IMG/VR virus record: IMGVR_UViG_3300049484_000183
Span: 1-21,985 of that record
Direction: 5' to 3' (one strand)
Source of the DNA: a virus
Length of the DNA: 21,985 bases
The notes beneath the pieces were generated by a model. That model did no database searches. It worked only from the letters and a program-made list of their open reading frames with translations, and was not told where the DNA came from. A program made the translations under genes and the position numbers. Shown here one piece after another: positions 2,052 through 21,628 of this stretch (positions are counted from its first letter, which is position 1; each line of letters opens with the position of its first letter).

Positions 2052-2417
2052 ATGACACTTGCAACATATATCAACGATAATTTCCCCACAATCAAAACTC
2101 AACTTGGCTGGAATGACAGCACGCAGATCGTAACCATTGTAGCCAAAGCCGTCGAATTGTACGGCGTTGCAACCGAAGCGGACGCCACCAACCTTGCGAA
2201 GTTGCACGTATTGGCGTCTGTGGCGGTTTGGAGTCAGGCACTCACTGACATCAGCCTTGATTACAATTGGAGTGCGGACGGCGGAAGTTTTTCCCGCTCT
2301 CAAGCTGTTGACGCTGTACGCAAGAACCTGGACGAAGCCCTGAGCGCGTCGCTTGTATACATGGGCGGCTATTCCATGACTGTACACGCAGGCGATAATA
2401 ACCCGGACTGGAAATGA
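2052..2417 (+). CDS. Head-tail connector/adaptor protein (gp6- or gp15-like)
   Basis: A 121-aa, mostly helical protein. It starts with LATYINDNFPTIKTQLGW and has a long helical middle (VAVWSQALTDI) and a conserved-looking end with LDEALSASLVYMGGYS. This pattern of 100-130 aa just after the capsid gene fits the adaptor proteins that dock under the portal (HK97 gp6, SPP1 gp15). The start codon has only weak Shine-Dalgarno bases (TTGAG) and stands 11 nt after a strong hairpin, so translation may depend on upstream ribosomes. It overlaps the next gene by 4 nt. Confidence 0.7.
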   Translation: MTLATYINDNFPTIKTQLGWNDSTQIVTIVAKAVELYGVATEADATNLAKLHVLASVAVWSQALTDISLDYNWSADGGSFSRSQAVDAVRKNLDEALSASLVYMGGYSMTVHAGDNNPDWK

Positions 2418-2776
2418 GACACATCAGCGCAGGCGAACAAGCCCGCATGGTTGCGGCGGCGGTATCAAGTTTCAATGACCTGTGTGATATCTATCATTGG
2501 GTTAGCACAGTTGACTCGTTGAGTGGCGAAATTACAGACGGTTATGACTCATCTCCCTCCATGTCTACTGAGTGCGGATTTTCGGCTGGCCCACAACAAC
2601 GAAACGAGCGCGGGCAGATCGTCACCATTGACGCGGACGCAGTTCTAAGAGTTGCACAGGGGACGAATATCAAGGTCAAAGACAAGGTTATCGCCCGCTC
2701 TGTGACCTACATCGTAGACGGTATCATTCCCGGGCGCGATGTGACTATTGGCAACCTAAAGGAAATAAAAATATAA
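2414..2776 (+). CDS. Head closure (stopper)-like protein
   Basis: A 120-aa protein between the adaptor and the gp10-like gene, the place of head-closure proteins (SPP1 gp16, HK97 gp7-like) that plug and close the connector after packaging. It has a helical N-terminus and a beta-rich second half with DADAVLRVAQGTNIKVKDKV and a closing YIVDGIIPGRDVTIGNLKEI, the usual small beta-barrel pattern of the family. It overlaps the upstream gene by 4 nt (ATGA) and the next by 1 nt (TAATG), so translation is coupled. Confidence 0.68.
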   Translation: MRHISAGEQARMVAAAVSSFNDLCDIYHWVSTVDSLSGEITDGYDSSPSMSTECGFSAGPQQRNERGQIVTIDADAVLRVAQGTNIKVKDKVIARSVTYIVDGIIPGRDVTIGNLKEIKI

Positions 2777-17747: not shown

Positions 17748-18089
17748 ATGACAAACAAATTTCACGATGAGTTAGACGCATTTGAGGCCCGCGTACGCGC
17801 GGAGCAGGAAGAAACCGATTTGCACATGACGCCCAAAACGCCCTTGCTTGACTTGCTTGAAAAGATCAACAGCGAGATCGAGAAGGCTTTGGCAATCCTG
17901 GACGAAGGTAAACGCGCGCGGCTGGCGAAAGATGAAGATGAAGCCGAAGACGACGACGAGCCGACCATTACCAAAGACGAGTTTGAAGAAAAGATGGCAC
18001 GCGGTCTTTACTTCCCGCTTGATGGAAGCGACACGGGCATGATGGCGCAGTTGGAAGCGGCAGGATTTGGCTCTGGAGGTGTGATGTGA
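17748..18089 (+). CDS. Hypothetical acidic protein upstream of ERF
   Basis: A 113-aa protein with AAGGAG 9 nt before the start. It is strongly acidic in the middle (AKDEDEAEDDDEPTITKDEF) with helices on both sides and a glycine-rich end. Acidic proteins next to recombination genes can be DNA mimics or partners of SSB-like proteins, but nothing here shows this. It overlaps the ERF gene by 4 nt (GTGA). No family recognised. Confidence 0.65.
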   Translation: MTNKFHDELDAFEARVRAEQEETDLHMTPKTPLLDLLEKINSEIEKALAILDEGKRARLAKDEDEAEDDDEPTITKDEFEEKMARGLYFPLDGSDTGMMAQLEAAGFGSGGVM

Positions 18090-18754
18090 ACGCAATGACA
18101 TTAGCAGGAAAGATTGCTCTTGCAAGTATTGAGGTCGGAAACTTCAAAGCCGATAAAAAGAACATGGAGCAGAAATACGCATACATCAGCGCGGATCAAG
18201 TTTTATCACGTGCGGGCGATGCGCTTGCAAAGCAGGGCGTGACGGTTTTCCCTTCTCTGTTGGAAGTTGAATTGACAACAATAGAGCGTCAAGGAAAATC
18301 AGCCCGCATTGATGCAAAAATCACCTATTCCATGATGATTTCAGACGGTGAGAAAGATATTGTTATTCCTTGGTTCGGGTATGGTTCTGACTATATGACA
18401 CCTGACAAGGCAGTTTACAAGGCAATCACATCAGGACATAAATATTTCTTGATGAAACTTTTGAACATCGGCGTTGGTAACGAGGATGGCGAACACGAAG
18501 TAGAGAATACTCAAAACGTGATCCTGAACGGATTGCCGGTTGAAAACATCAGTCAAGAGACTGGCGAAGTTGTCAAGCCTATCCGAATTATTGACACGAT
18601 GAGCGATGAAGCGGTAACAATCGCCTCCCAGAAATGGAATATCGGAAAGCCGGAAGCCGCCAAAGAACTTGGCAAAAAGAAATTAAGCAAGATGGGCGTA
18701 ACTGAATTTATTGACTGGCTGAATGATCCGCAAGCAGGAATGGAAGCACAATAA
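18086..18754 (+). CDS. erf: ERF-family single-strand DNA annealing protein
   Basis: A 222-aa protein with ERF hallmarks: QKYAYISADQVLSRAGDALA (residues 29-48), VTVFPSLLEVE, and WFGYGSDYMTPDKAVYKAIT with SGHKYFLMKLLNIG (96-129). The family anneals complementary single strands in phage recombination and genome circularisation. I take the GTG at 18086 as start because GGAGGT (18075-18080) lies 5 nt upstream, whereas ATG 18095 is 14 nt away. The C-terminal part (about 170-215) is a small helical domain. No partner exonuclease is evident. Confidence 0.85.
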   Translation: MNAMTLAGKIALASIEVGNFKADKKNMEQKYAYISADQVLSRAGDALAKQGVTVFPSLLEVELTTIERQGKSARIDAKITYSMMISDGEKDIVIPWFGYGSDYMTPDKAVYKAITSGHKYFLMKLLNIGVGNEDGEHEVENTQNVILNGLPVENISQETGEVVKPIRIIDTMSDEAVTIASQKWNIGKPEAAKELGKKKLSKMGVTEFIDWLNDPQAGMEAQ

Positions 18755-19278: not shown

Positions 19279-20238
19279 ATGAAATCCTTGATACTTGTAG
19301 GAATGAACCCAAAGACACGAAACCTTATCCCCTGGGATAGTGACGCGGAAATCTGGACACTCAACGAGGCGTATGTCAACAAGTGGCTGAAACGCTATGA
19401 CGTGCTTTTCCAGCTTCATCCCCGTTGGGATTGGGAGCGAAACAATAACTTTGCAGATCCAAACCATCCGCGCTACATCAAGGCAGAGTCGGGCGCGTGC
19501 CTGTTTTGCTCTGGCACTGGCGAAGCGATGAAGGAAGGACAAGTAGAACCATGCCCTCATTGTGAGGATGGGAAGTACACAGTACCTGACCATCGCAACG
19601 GCAAATTTATCGTCATGCAAGACGATAACAACGATGTTCCCAAGTGCGTAAAATTGAATATAGACAAGATGGTAGAGGAATTTTGTGAGAATGGCAAACC
19701 TTATTTTACATCTACCTTCGCCCACATGTTAGTTTATGCTTTCTTGATGAATTACAGAGAAATCAGCATTTACGGATTTGAAATGGAAAGCGACACAGAA
19801 TACATCCATCAGCGACCTTGCGCTGAATACTGGATAGGCTACGGACGGGCGTTGGGTATCAAGATCGAAGCTCCCGGCTCGAAAATCCTGACTGGAACTC
19901 ATTACGCCTACGAAACCAACGTACAAGGCTATCGAACGCGGCTTGAGTTGAGAGTAAACCACTTGAAAGATCAACTTCAAAAAGCAGAGGCGGAAGCGAT
20001 CAGGAGCGAAGGCGCGTTGAATGCGGTAACACCTTTCAAGGCAATCCCCGAAGTCACACCCGCTTTTGATTTGCACTTTGATGAGCATTTCAGAAAAAAA
20101 GGCTTTGTGTCATTCCTGAGAGGCGCAATCCGTGAGACTGAAAACCTAATCAGGCTGTACGACGCATACAACGCGGACGGGAACGAAAAACCCTCCGACG
20201 CGGCGCAAATGTTGGGCTTGACTTACGAACTCGGTTAA
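19279..20238 (+). CDS. Rossmann-type protein with inserted zinc ribbon
   Basis: A 319-aa protein with AGGAG (19270-19274) 4 nt upstream. It begins LILVGMNPKTRNLIPWDSD and AEIWTLNEAY, and later has YFTSTFAHMLVYAFLMNYRE followed by ISIYGFEM and RPCAEYWIGYGRALGIKI, a layout parallel to the GNGPS protein at 15537. A zinc ribbon is inserted at residues 74-95 (CLFC and CPHC). The C-terminal third is a coiled coil plus RLYDAYNADGNEKP, whose DNA is duplicated at 20771-20815. Nucleotide or nucleotide-sugar chemistry is a guess from fold; substrate unknown. Its long structured leader suggests regulation. Confidence 0.6.
   Translation: MKSLILVGMNPKTRNLIPWDSDAEIWTLNEAYVNKWLKRYDVLFQLHPRWDWERNNNFADPNHPRYIKAESGACLFCSGTGEAMKEGQVEPCPHCEDGKYTVPDHRNGKFIVMQDDNNDVPKCVKLNIDKMVEEFCENGKPYFTSTFAHMLVYAFLMNYREISIYGFEMESDTEYIHQRPCAEYWIGYGRALGIKIEAPGSKILTGTHYAYETNVQGYRTRLELRVNHLKDQLQKAEAEAIRSEGALNAVTPFKAIPEVTPAFDLHFDEHFRKKGFVSFLRGAIRETENLIRLYDAYNADGNEKPSDAAQMLGLTYELG
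20148..20192 (+). repeat. 45-bp perfect direct repeat, copy 1
   Basis: Identical to 20771-20815. This copy encodes IRLYDAYNADGNEKP in the C-terminal part of the Rossmann/zinc-ribbon protein. Sequence to the right (CTCCGAC) differs from the right flank of copy 2 (GTTAGGT). It is probably the source copy, as it sits inside a complete gene. Confidence 0.95.
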
Positions 20239-20306
20239 TTGCTGTTTAGGTGGACACTGTCAAATACAATAGTTAGCCCGCCCATCTAAACGAAAGGAAC
20301 TTGCAA

Positions 20307-20552
20307 ATGAAAGGTAGAACAAAAGGAATATTTGAGAGAGCCGAAGAAAGTAACTTATGGTGGCGTATGCGTGCCAGCAAAAGTGATAAGTCAAATATAT
20401 CTCGGCTGGCAGAATCGCTCGGCATGAAGGAAAGTGACGCGGTAAGGTACGCGGTAGCCTTTGCATTAAACAGCGGGCTAACAAAGCGTGCAGCGGACGG
20501 GGCGAAGTCGTTCGTTGAAAAAGAGTTAGTCGGTTATTCGCCCCGCCGCTAA
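20307..20552 (+). CDS. Cassette 1 ORF: small RHH/CopG-like protein
   Basis: I choose ATG 20307 (81 aa); AAGGA (20294-20298) stands 8 nt upstream, while the TTG at 20301 is too close. Residues about 18-50 have a ribbon-helix-helix-like pattern, NISRLAESLGMKESDAVRYA, with a basic N-terminus, so DNA binding or antitoxin/regulator activity is possible. The last ~25 residues (from LTKRAADG) are encoded by the attC-like element and may not be functional. The stop TAA lies inside the right arm of that element. Confidence 0.6.
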   Translation: MKGRTKGIFERAEESNLWWRMRASKSDKSNISRLAESLGMKESDAVRYAVAFALNSGLTKRAADGAKSFVEKELVGYSPRR

Positions 20553-20567
20553 TGCAAACCGTTAGGC
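20476..20567 (+). repeat. attC-like site 1
   Basis: Left box GGCTAAC (20476-20482) and right box GTTAGGC (20561-20567). Spacers are AAAGCGTGC (9 nt) and AATGCAAACC (10 nt). Arms are AGCGG-A-CGGGGCGAA (20492-20506) and TTCGCCCCGCCGCT (20537-20550): 14 complementary pairs with one extra A (20497) on the left, as expected for the extrahelical base that gives attC its orientation. The variable loop is 30 nt. Total 92 bp, within the normal attC range. Confidence 0.8.
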
Positions 20568-20580
20568 GTTTGGAGGTCAA

Positions 20581-20820
20581 ATGGAAAACACTTGCGAATG
20601 GGGTTATTTGGAAGATGATGATGCGTGGGAAACTTCCTGCAATAAGATGCGCTATCTCAATTGGGGAACTCCCGAAGATAATCGTTACAGGTATTGTCCC
20701 TATTGTGGGCAACGCCTAACAATGCGTCCACCCGACAGGGGCGGGCTGTGGCTCAAAATGAGTTATTCGGAATCAGGCTGTACGACGCATACAACGCGGA
20801 CGGGAACGAAAAACCGTTAG
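20581..20820 (+). CDS. Cassette 2 ORF: zinc-ribbon protein
   Basis: A 79-aa protein with GGAGGT (20572-20577) just before ATG 20581. It has CEWG...WETSCNKM and RYCPYCGQRL: three cysteine positions, C5, C20 and CPYC, making a small zinc ribbon like those of Lar/restriction-alleviation-type phage proteins. The part after about residue 45 is encoded by the attC-like element and ends in the core box itself (stop TAG 20818-20820 inside GTTAGGT). The N-terminal 44 residues are the likely functional part. Confidence 0.6.
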   Translation: MENTCEWGYLEDDDAWETSCNKMRYLNWGTPEDNRYRYCPYCGQRLTMRPPDRGGLWLKMSYSESGCTTHTTRTGTKNR

Positions 20821-20822
20821 GT
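20714..20822 (+). repeat. attC-like site 2, with a replaced right half
   Basis: Left box GCCTAAC (20714-20720, perfect RYYYAAC), spacer AATGCGTCC, left arm ACCCG-A-CAGGGGCGG (20730-20744) with the same extra A as sites 1 and 3. The right box is GTTAGGT (20816-20822, perfect GTTRRRY), preceded by AACGAAAAACC and CGGG, which pairs only with CCCG of the left arm. The remaining right arm is missing: 20771-20815 is a copy of 20148-20192. A weaker right box GTTATTC (20762-20768) next to a small hairpin (CCAC.CCG/CGG.GTGG) could mark the original end. Confidence 0.6.
20771..20815 (+). repeat. 45-bp perfect direct repeat, copy 2
   Basis: Identical to 20148-20192. It forms the right half of attC-like site 2, and the identity ends at 20815, one base before the G of the GTTAGGT core. 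It starts just after TTATTCGG. Confidence 0.95.
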
Positions 20823-20828
20823 GCTTAC

Positions 20829-21323
20829 ATGCGTAATCGTGATGGTCTCGTAAACAGCGATCACTGGGCAACACCAGCCAAACTTTATAAAAAGTTGGAC
20901 GCTGAATTTCATTTTGACTTTGACCCATGCCCATTGCACGCGACTTTTGACGGTCTGCAAGTTGAATGGGGTAACGTCAATTTTATAAACCCGCCATACA
21001 ATCGCGTGGATAAGCCTAAGTTTATTCAGAAAGCCTTCGATGAATGGCGCAAAGGTAAAACGTGTGTGCTTCTCATTCCAGCGGCAACAGGAACAAAGCA
21101 ATTTCACGATCTTATTCTGCCCCATGCTGAAATCCGTTTCCTTCGTGGGCGGGTTGCGTTTGAAGGCTACAACACAAAAGGAGAGTATGTCACAAATAAT
21201 AAAGGGAAGCACGATAGCATGTTAGTCATCTTTCACGGCACGCACCTAACACAGCGTGCACTGGACGAAAAGCCGTCCAGCGTTTTTTCAAGTCCTCAGT
21301 TACTCGCGGCTTTTCGCCAGTAA
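20829..21323 (+). CDS. Cassette 3 ORF: phage N6-adenine DNA methyltransferase
   Basis: I choose ATG 20829 (164 aa); earlier in-frame readings run back through site 2. It matches the Dam-like phage N-6-adenine methyltransferase family: DHWATPAKLYKKLDAEFHFD, FDPCP (31-35), NFINPPYNRV (NPPY, 54-57) and FLRGRVAFEG. It would methylate adenine in DNA, probably protecting phage DNA from host nucleases. No clear Shine-Dalgarno bases precede it (GTGCTTAC), so it may be translated by coupling or weakly. Its last ~25 residues (LTQRALDEK...) come from attC-like site 3. Confidence 0.82.
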   Translation: MRNRDGLVNSDHWATPAKLYKKLDAEFHFDFDPCPLHATFDGLQVEWGNVNFINPPYNRVDKPKFIQKAFDEWRKGKTCVLLIPAATGTKQFHDLILPHAEIRFLRGRVAFEGYNTKGEYVTNNKGKHDSMLVIFHGTHLTQRALDEKPSSVFSSPQLLAAFRQ

Positions 21324-21339
21324 CGCAAGCCGTATAGGC
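21244..21339 (+). repeat. attC-like site 3 (right box degenerate)
   Basis: Left box ACCTAAC (21244-21250, perfect). Left spacer ACAGCGTGC, nearly the same as site 1. Arms ACTGG-A-CGAAAAGCC (21260-21274) and GGCTTTTCGCCAGT (21308-21321), 14 pairs with one extra A (21265). Right spacer AACGCAAGCC (21322-21331). The right box reads GTATAGGC (21332-21339), one base longer than GTTAGGC, so the last site may be inactive. Confidence 0.75.
21261..21288 (+). terminator. Terminator-like hairpin inside attC-like site 3
   Basis: CTGGACG (21261-21267) and CGTCCAG (21274-21280) form a perfect 7-bp stem with loop AAAAGC, followed by CGTTTTTT. It lies within the 3' coding end of the methyltransferase and uses bases of the attC left arm, so the two folds compete. 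It might end cassette transcripts early. Confidence 0.5.
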
Positions 21340-21341
21340 GG

Positions 21342-21356
21342 TAAAACGGCGTTTTA
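21342..21356. promoter_or_regulatory. Palindrome upstream of the last small gene
   Basis: TAAAAC-GGC-GTTTTA is a perfect inverted repeat right after the cassette array, followed by GTATAC (21371-21376) and a -10-like TATACT (21372-21377). It could be an operator for the 54-aa gene. No good -35 box is present. Confidence 0.35.
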
Positions 21357-21400
21357 TACAATAGCTGGTCGTATACTTGGCAAAAAAGGAGCGTTGAAAA

Positions 21401-21565
21401 ATGGCACAAAGAATAATCGTTGAGTACACATATATTTTTTATTGCGATGGTGATTTCTTCGAGCAAAATACGTTTGACTCTGATGAAGCCGCTATTAAGC
21501 ACGCTAAAGCCGAAGCAGAGAAGCGGGGCAAACCCGTAAAGGTTGCAAGGTGGCTTGAATTTTAG
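21401..21565 (+). CDS. Small hypothetical protein (54 aa)
   Basis: AAGGAG (21386-21391) lies 9 nt before ATG 21401; the frame is open to TAG 21563-21565. The protein starts MAQRIIVEYTYIFYCDGDFF, followed by a charged helix DEAAIKHAKAEAEKRGK and a last strand VKVARWLEF, a compact beta-alpha-beta pattern that looks like a real folded protein. It is the last gene before the strong terminator. Function unknown. Confidence 0.65.
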   Translation: MAQRIIVEYTYIFYCDGDFFEQNTFDSDEAAIKHAKAEAEKRGKPVKVARWLEF

Positions 21566-21602
21566 TCGGGTAATACGCCCACTGAGAGCTGAATAATAAT
21601 AC

Positions 21603-21628
21603 CCCTCTCTTTACGAGAGGGTTTTTTT
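21603..21628 (+). terminator. Rho-independent terminator ending the early/accessory region
   Basis: CCCTCTC (21603-21609), loop TTTAC, GAGAGGG (21615-21621), then seven T. This textbook terminator separates the accessory region from the virion operon. Confidence 0.92.

Follow-up and report, generated by a model that had tools for sequence, protein, structure and literature searches.

Integrase-less arrays of integron gene cassettes (CALINs) have already been described in phages. A survey of 10,705 NCBI phage genomes by Qi et al. 2023 (PMC9892861) reported 17 of them, several cassettes of which encode DNA methyltransferases, and the integrase IntI1 recombined 5 of the 6 attC sites from virulent phages that were tested there. 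The claim of an earlier, sequence-only reading of the DNA studied here, that cassette arrays in small lytic-type phages are little described, is qualified by these earlier reports from virulent phages. The present locus lies in the viral record IMGVR_UViG_3300049484_000183, which was analysed over its entire length of 21,985 bases (the window). Judged by the accessible text of PMC9892861, the window array is a further case of the same kind. As in the virulent-phage arrays described there, it has no integrase gene, its cassettes are unidirectional and a methyltransferase belongs to the cargo. The attC sites of that study were recognised by class 1 IntI1 in assays. Chloroflexi or Anaerolineae are not mentioned in its text. 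Bacterial integrons with attI and intI are the second point of comparison. They share with the phage loci the attC architecture, the G/TT boundaries (a slash marks a boundary throughout) and, in relatives of the window phage, an attI-like entry site before the first cassette. They differ in that neither the window nor its sister phage has an integrase; in the relatives, a gene of about 66 aa occupies the place expected for intI.

The window record ends in a 127-bp direct terminal repeat, and its genome is therefore probably complete. It encodes a terminase (phrog_38), an SPP1-like portal, a major capsid protein, a tail tape measure protein and a replication initiator. All main genes are located on the plus strand, and the cassette ORFs have the same direction as the flanking phage genes. 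The features of the locus are collected in Table 1.

Table 1. Features of the cassette array in the window, its surroundings and the small gene of the sister phage.
Feature	Position	Strand	Remarks
Erf-like ssDNA annealing protein	18086-18754		window
Phage gene left of the array	19279..20238	+	no family match; kept in the sister (74% aa) and L100 (51% aa)
Template of the 45-bp duplication	20148..20192	+	exact duplicate within attC 2
Left boundary of the array	20272..20278	+	R'-like GTTAGCC; preceding bases without attI-like score
Cassette 1	20272..20560	+	ORF 20307-20552, 81 aa
attC 1	20476..20567	+	intact; CM 67 bits, E 4.8e-19; bottom-strand fold z -3.0; R'' GGCTAAC, L'' with extra A at 20497, L', R' GTTAGGC
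Cassette 2	20561..20815	+	ORF 20581-20820, 79 aa, zinc-ribbon-like (sub-threshold match)
attC 2	20714..20822	+	damaged; CM 22.6 bits, E 3.5e-5; fold z -0.03
45-bp copy	20771..20815	+	exact copy of 20148-20192, the end of the neighbouring phage gene
Cassette 3	20816..21331	+	ORF 20829-21323, DNA N6-adenine methyltransferase (Dam, PF05869)
attC 3	21244..21339	+	CM 52 bits, E 2.2e-14; fold z -3.95
Cassette 4	21364..21582	+	ORF 21401-21565, 54 aa; R'' remnant; distal attC lost or truncated
Terminator-like hairpin	21603..21621	+	end of the array, ahead of scaffold/capsid genes
Small gene of the sister (L001)	2243-2449		stops at the attI-like site or shortly ahead of it

A covariance model (CM) was built from 17 attC sites of other viral contigs and one Anaerolineae genome, the window phage and its sister being left out of the training set. 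The stem of these 17 sites shows covariation, with 28 double changes versus 8.7 in shuffles, and the unpaired extra A is near-invariant. A search of the window, run without filters, revealed only three matches (attC 1-3), the next best having an E-value of 0.44. An Rfam search at gathering level gave no match. The 5' half of the sites, TAACANNGCGTNCA, occurs in the window only at 20479, 20717 and 21247 (0.02 expected). The sequence-only reading had placed the R''/spacer''/L'' blocks and the unpaired A (20497, 20735 and 21265) exactly, and its three sites are all matched by this independent model. It had also described RYYYAAC and GTTRRRY boxes with 14-bp arms at all three. This is correct for attC 1 and nearly so for attC 3, which has intact arms but an R' box with one additional base (GTATAGG versus GTTRRRY); at attC 2 it applies to one half, as the 3' arm is replaced by a 45-bp copy of a phage gene. 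The expected folding of the bottom strands was likewise found for attC 1 and attC 3, which as ssDNA form the attC hairpin with the extra base, and not for attC 2, whose fold is no better than shuffles. Accordingly, the L''/L' stem and extrahelical base are present at attC 1 and attC 3 and absent at attC 2. Pairing of R'' with R' comprises 6 of 7 pairs at attC 1 (6-7 of 7 at the sister's sites) and is partial at attC 3, owing to the extra R' base; attC 2 retains its R'', L'' and R' elements. Only attC 1 is thus wholly intact among the three; the damage to the other two was missed by the sequence-only reading. The window sites may be regarded as putative IntI recombination sites.

Two simpler search strategies were less informative. 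With strict exact attC patterns, matches were limited to 3 viral contigs and, out of 298 genomes from the class of an Anaerolineae MAG, a single one. A loose structural scan (an NNNNAAC/GTTNNNN pair with an inner stem) was rejected as uninformative on its own, with 29 matches in the window versus 21.4 +/- 4.9 in shuffled sequences.

The 45-bp copy inside attC 2 abuts the R' box GTTAGG of cassette 3. An assembly artefact was rejected as its source, as this would require the repeat at both places anyway. An intact attC site of phage contig L034 is 84% identical to the 5' half of attC 2.

The locus had been delimited as a three-ORF array at 20272-21339. The three ORFs are confirmed, but the array does not end there: a fourth cassette follows, whose R' box is degenerate (GCTGGTC, 21364-21370). 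Between attC 3 and this cassette, an imperfect palindrome, GTATAGGCGGTAAAACGGCGTTTTATAC, is located at 21332-21360; it continues into ATACAATAG, a 9-base sequence that also stands ahead of the left boundary at 20272. The cargo had been interpreted as defence genes. A (counter-)defence role is plausible for the Dam-type methyltransferase of cassette 3; for the other two ORFs the interpretation was not upheld, the zinc ribbon of cassette 2 being a sub-threshold assignment and the ORF of cassette 1 giving no significant family match and being RHH-like by eye only. Terminator-like sequence, read by eye, is also present 3' of the arrays of the sister and of another relative, L065.

Counterparts of the window cassettes were found in other viral contigs. 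Cassette 3 is 92.5% identical over 521 bp to a cassette of L011 (IMGVR_UViG_3300025030_000467); the homology starts with CC/GTTAGG and stops at GCAAGCCGT, and both flanks are unrelated. Cassette 4 shares 94% protein and 87% DNA identity with a cassette of L034, which is located there between two CM attC sites. Cassette 2, from its start to the 5' end of its attC, is 86% identical at the nucleotide level to a stretch of L043, a 77.7-kb phage contig. The homologies are bounded at G/TT, exactly at both ends for cassette 3 and L011 and at the R' side for cassettes 2 and 4. In L034 and L043, the terminase, portal or endolysin genes belong to families other than those of the window; the phage status of L011, with a tail-fibre match only, is weaker than theirs. 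Judged from these comparisons, the window cassettes are mobile gene cassettes, and the near-identical cassettes in L034 and L043, next to other structural families, indicate that cassettes moved between phages differing in their structural genes. Delimitation of cassettes by regular expressions was abandoned as too strict for counting exchanges.

The same locus was then compared in related phages. The sister phage (L001, IMGVR_UViG_3300042876_000151; 21,919 bases with a terminal repeat of 84 bp and 86% capsid identity) shares the flanking genes with the window and carries three different cassettes between them, among which no homologue of the window cassette genes was found, and three CM attC sites (57-65 bits). 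In the third relative (L065, an 8.6-kb fragment, capsid 75%), the order read by eye is an attC end, one ORF, a truncated attC and the scaffold gene; the CM gives such partial sites no score. The fourth (L100) has several genes in common with the window at 51-74%, and its array, with two attC sites, is placed on the opposite side of the gene homologous to the phage gene at 19279-20238. The genes thus differ between related phages at this locus, and cassettes shared with other viral contigs begin and end at G/TT, an outcome in favour of the sequence-only reading. No report of cassette replacement at a single locus of related phages was found in the accessible text of PMC9892861 or in the open-access papers covered.

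In the sister and other phages, the cassettes are preceded by a platform that the sequence-only reading, confined to the window phage, had missed. It consists of a gene of about 66 aa followed by an attI-like site (TGTACATTCYGC-N8-TA/GTT). The sister's gene encodes 68 aa; its stop codon adjoins TGTACATTCCGC-ATAAAACA-TA/GTT, and the first cassette begins at that GTT. The viral collection contains 27 exact matches to the motif pattern, a count that is close to the chance estimate for tens of billions of bases and uninformative alone. Thirteen of these matches (in 12 contigs) have CM attC sites downstream in the same orientation; the sequences of these 13 are conserved up to TA/GTT and divergent beyond it, as expected for attI. 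This one conserved motif is common to the sister and no fewer than 11 further contigs, in most cases directly after the small gene. Insertion by IntI outside classical attI, at attG sites (Loot et al. 2024, cited in PMC11389934), could also explain arrays in phages, but attG sites are scattered, unlike this motif.

A search with the small protein alone gave 15 loci, all of which have CM attC sites downstream and 14 of which have the attI-like motif or a close variant. Most of them are contigs already found or included in the query alignment, and three (L136, L138 and L139) represent one array, hence about five further independent arrays were gained. Homologues of the small gene are present in L027, L019, L099, L110, L113, L131, L135, L136 and L140, and also in L100, whose platform has a copy with an internal stop. 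In the platform contigs L113, L019 and L017, the terminase, portal, endolysin or tape-measure proteins belong to unrelated types. Searches of INPHARED phages and PLSDB plasmids gave no match to the sister's small protein, and the 298 genomes of the Anaerolineae class yielded one weak, stop-interrupted match. Among the homologues scanned there was no significant Pfam or PHROG match; one gave a sub-cut-off Pfam hint of an RHH-type factor. The AlphaFold model of the protein is weak (pLDDT 68) and gave no useful PDB match. In the same 298 genomes, the attI-like motif occurs at chance level, about as often as a reversed control. Both the small gene and a recognisable attI-like motif are absent from the window (rank 638 on its strand), and its left boundary was rejected as a decayed attI, having no motif-level score.

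Two records, IMGVR_UViG_3300028840_002990 (L109, L119) and IMGVR_UViG_3300012228_000007 (L114, L131), each contain two separate attI-like or small-gene platforms with cassettes. In another contig (L058, IMGVR_UViG_3300009285_001180), an integron-integrase-like gene (895-1875) is located right after an attC site and is followed by a small gene (with a broken frame), an attI-like site and cassettes; this may be a platform that brings its own integrase, or else a cassette whose cargo is an integrase.

On balance, we favour the view that a family of phages carries an integrase-less integron platform, in which the ~66-aa gene (possibly a DNA-binding helper) has the attI-like site at or after its stop codon and cassettes are loaded by a host integrase in trans. 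The module is common to unrelated phages and differently placed in related ones, and would hence itself be a mobile accessory module. It appears to be new relative to the known phage CALINs, no report of an attI-plus-small-gene platform without integrase having been found in the accessible text of PMC9892861 or in the open-access papers covered.

A source of the integrase was sought in the Anaerolineae class. At a threshold of E <= 1e-6, attC sites of the model's type are carried by 70 of the 298 genomes, and an integron integrase above the curated cut-off was found in 31 of the 112 genomes searched for it. This type of attC thus exists among bacteria that encode the enzyme, in agreement with what had been expected of host genomes. 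An Anaerolineae-type host for the phage is weakly suggested, the assignment being weak because the attC model was applied to one bacterial class only. The cassette DNA of the window was not found in the 298 genomes, in a search run without a positive control. Among viral records, one attC pattern retrieved 47 (within L001-L050), 46 of which have CM attC sites, up to 11 each, although some may be host or prophage-edge DNA. Four of the 47 also hold an integron integrase above the cut-off, in phage or adjoining host DNA.

Taken together, the window array is probably an integron-type, integrase-less CALIN in a small tailed phage, which a host integrase would serve in trans. Three attC sites lie within 0.9 kb with ORFs between them, and a profile search gave no Phage_integrase (PF00589) match in the window or the sister, both apparently complete genomes; of a complete integron, intI and the attI-like motif are absent from the window. 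The interpretation as an integron-style cassette array is thus supported, and capture by a host integrase, as the sequence-only reading proposed, would best explain it. Each cassette is a unit of one short ORF and its attC, oriented as the phage genes, in an array closed by the terminator-like hairpin. During infection, a host-encoded integron integrase would recombine the folded bottom strand of attC. Cassettes would be taken up at the attI-like site, or else between attC sites, be lost between attC sites and be transcribed together with the upstream phage gene. In this way the phage could draw on the host's cassettes for small accessory genes, for example a DNA methyltransferase that may protect phage DNA. 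The differing genes of the relatives, several of which have a conserved docking site beside one small gene, suggest reloading of small genes by a recombinase borrowed from the host.

An alternative is that a piece of a host array was gained once, by illegitimate or homologous recombination, and is now static and decaying. Damage to two of the three attC sites, the truncated distal attC (also read as truncated in L065) and the absence of the small gene and of a recognisable attI-like site are in line with this. It is nevertheless unlikely, as the sister has three CM attC sites and the attI-like platform at the locus without any cassette in common, near-identical cassettes with exact boundaries are found in unrelated phages, and the platform is kept in many phages. 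It may fit the lineage of the window phage alone, whose array is, with two damaged attC sites, a truncated last one and neither small gene nor attI-like site, a partly decayed version. Integrase-free swapping of cassettes between phages, by a phage annealing recombinase acting at attC repeats, is distinctly improbable. The window does encode an Erf-like ssDNA annealing protein, and at the point where the 45-bp duplication ends, 5 nt (AAACC) match normal attC spacers; however, the homology of shared cassettes stops at the G/TT crossover instead of being scattered within the repeats, and the attI-like motif, with only its GTT core in common with attC, still marks a cassette boundary. That the sites are other palindromic repeats (terminators or MITE-like hairpins) merely resembling attC is very hard to credit: one attC 3 arm scores as terminator-like and attenuator-like hairpins are common in phages, but the covarying two-part stem, the unpaired A, the conserved R boxes, the single ORF per interval and the precise exchange of cassettes contradict it, as the CM result and exchange boundaries already did.

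Under the favoured reading, in which a host integrase acts in trans on a phage-borne array, a genome of about 22 kb could stay small and yet sample a host-wide accessory pool by lending docking sites to the host integrase. If this is true, phages would not only carry but also use integron cassettes in a bacterial group that has been little studied, and their cassette turnover would become readable from related genomes and testable by a standard recombination assay.
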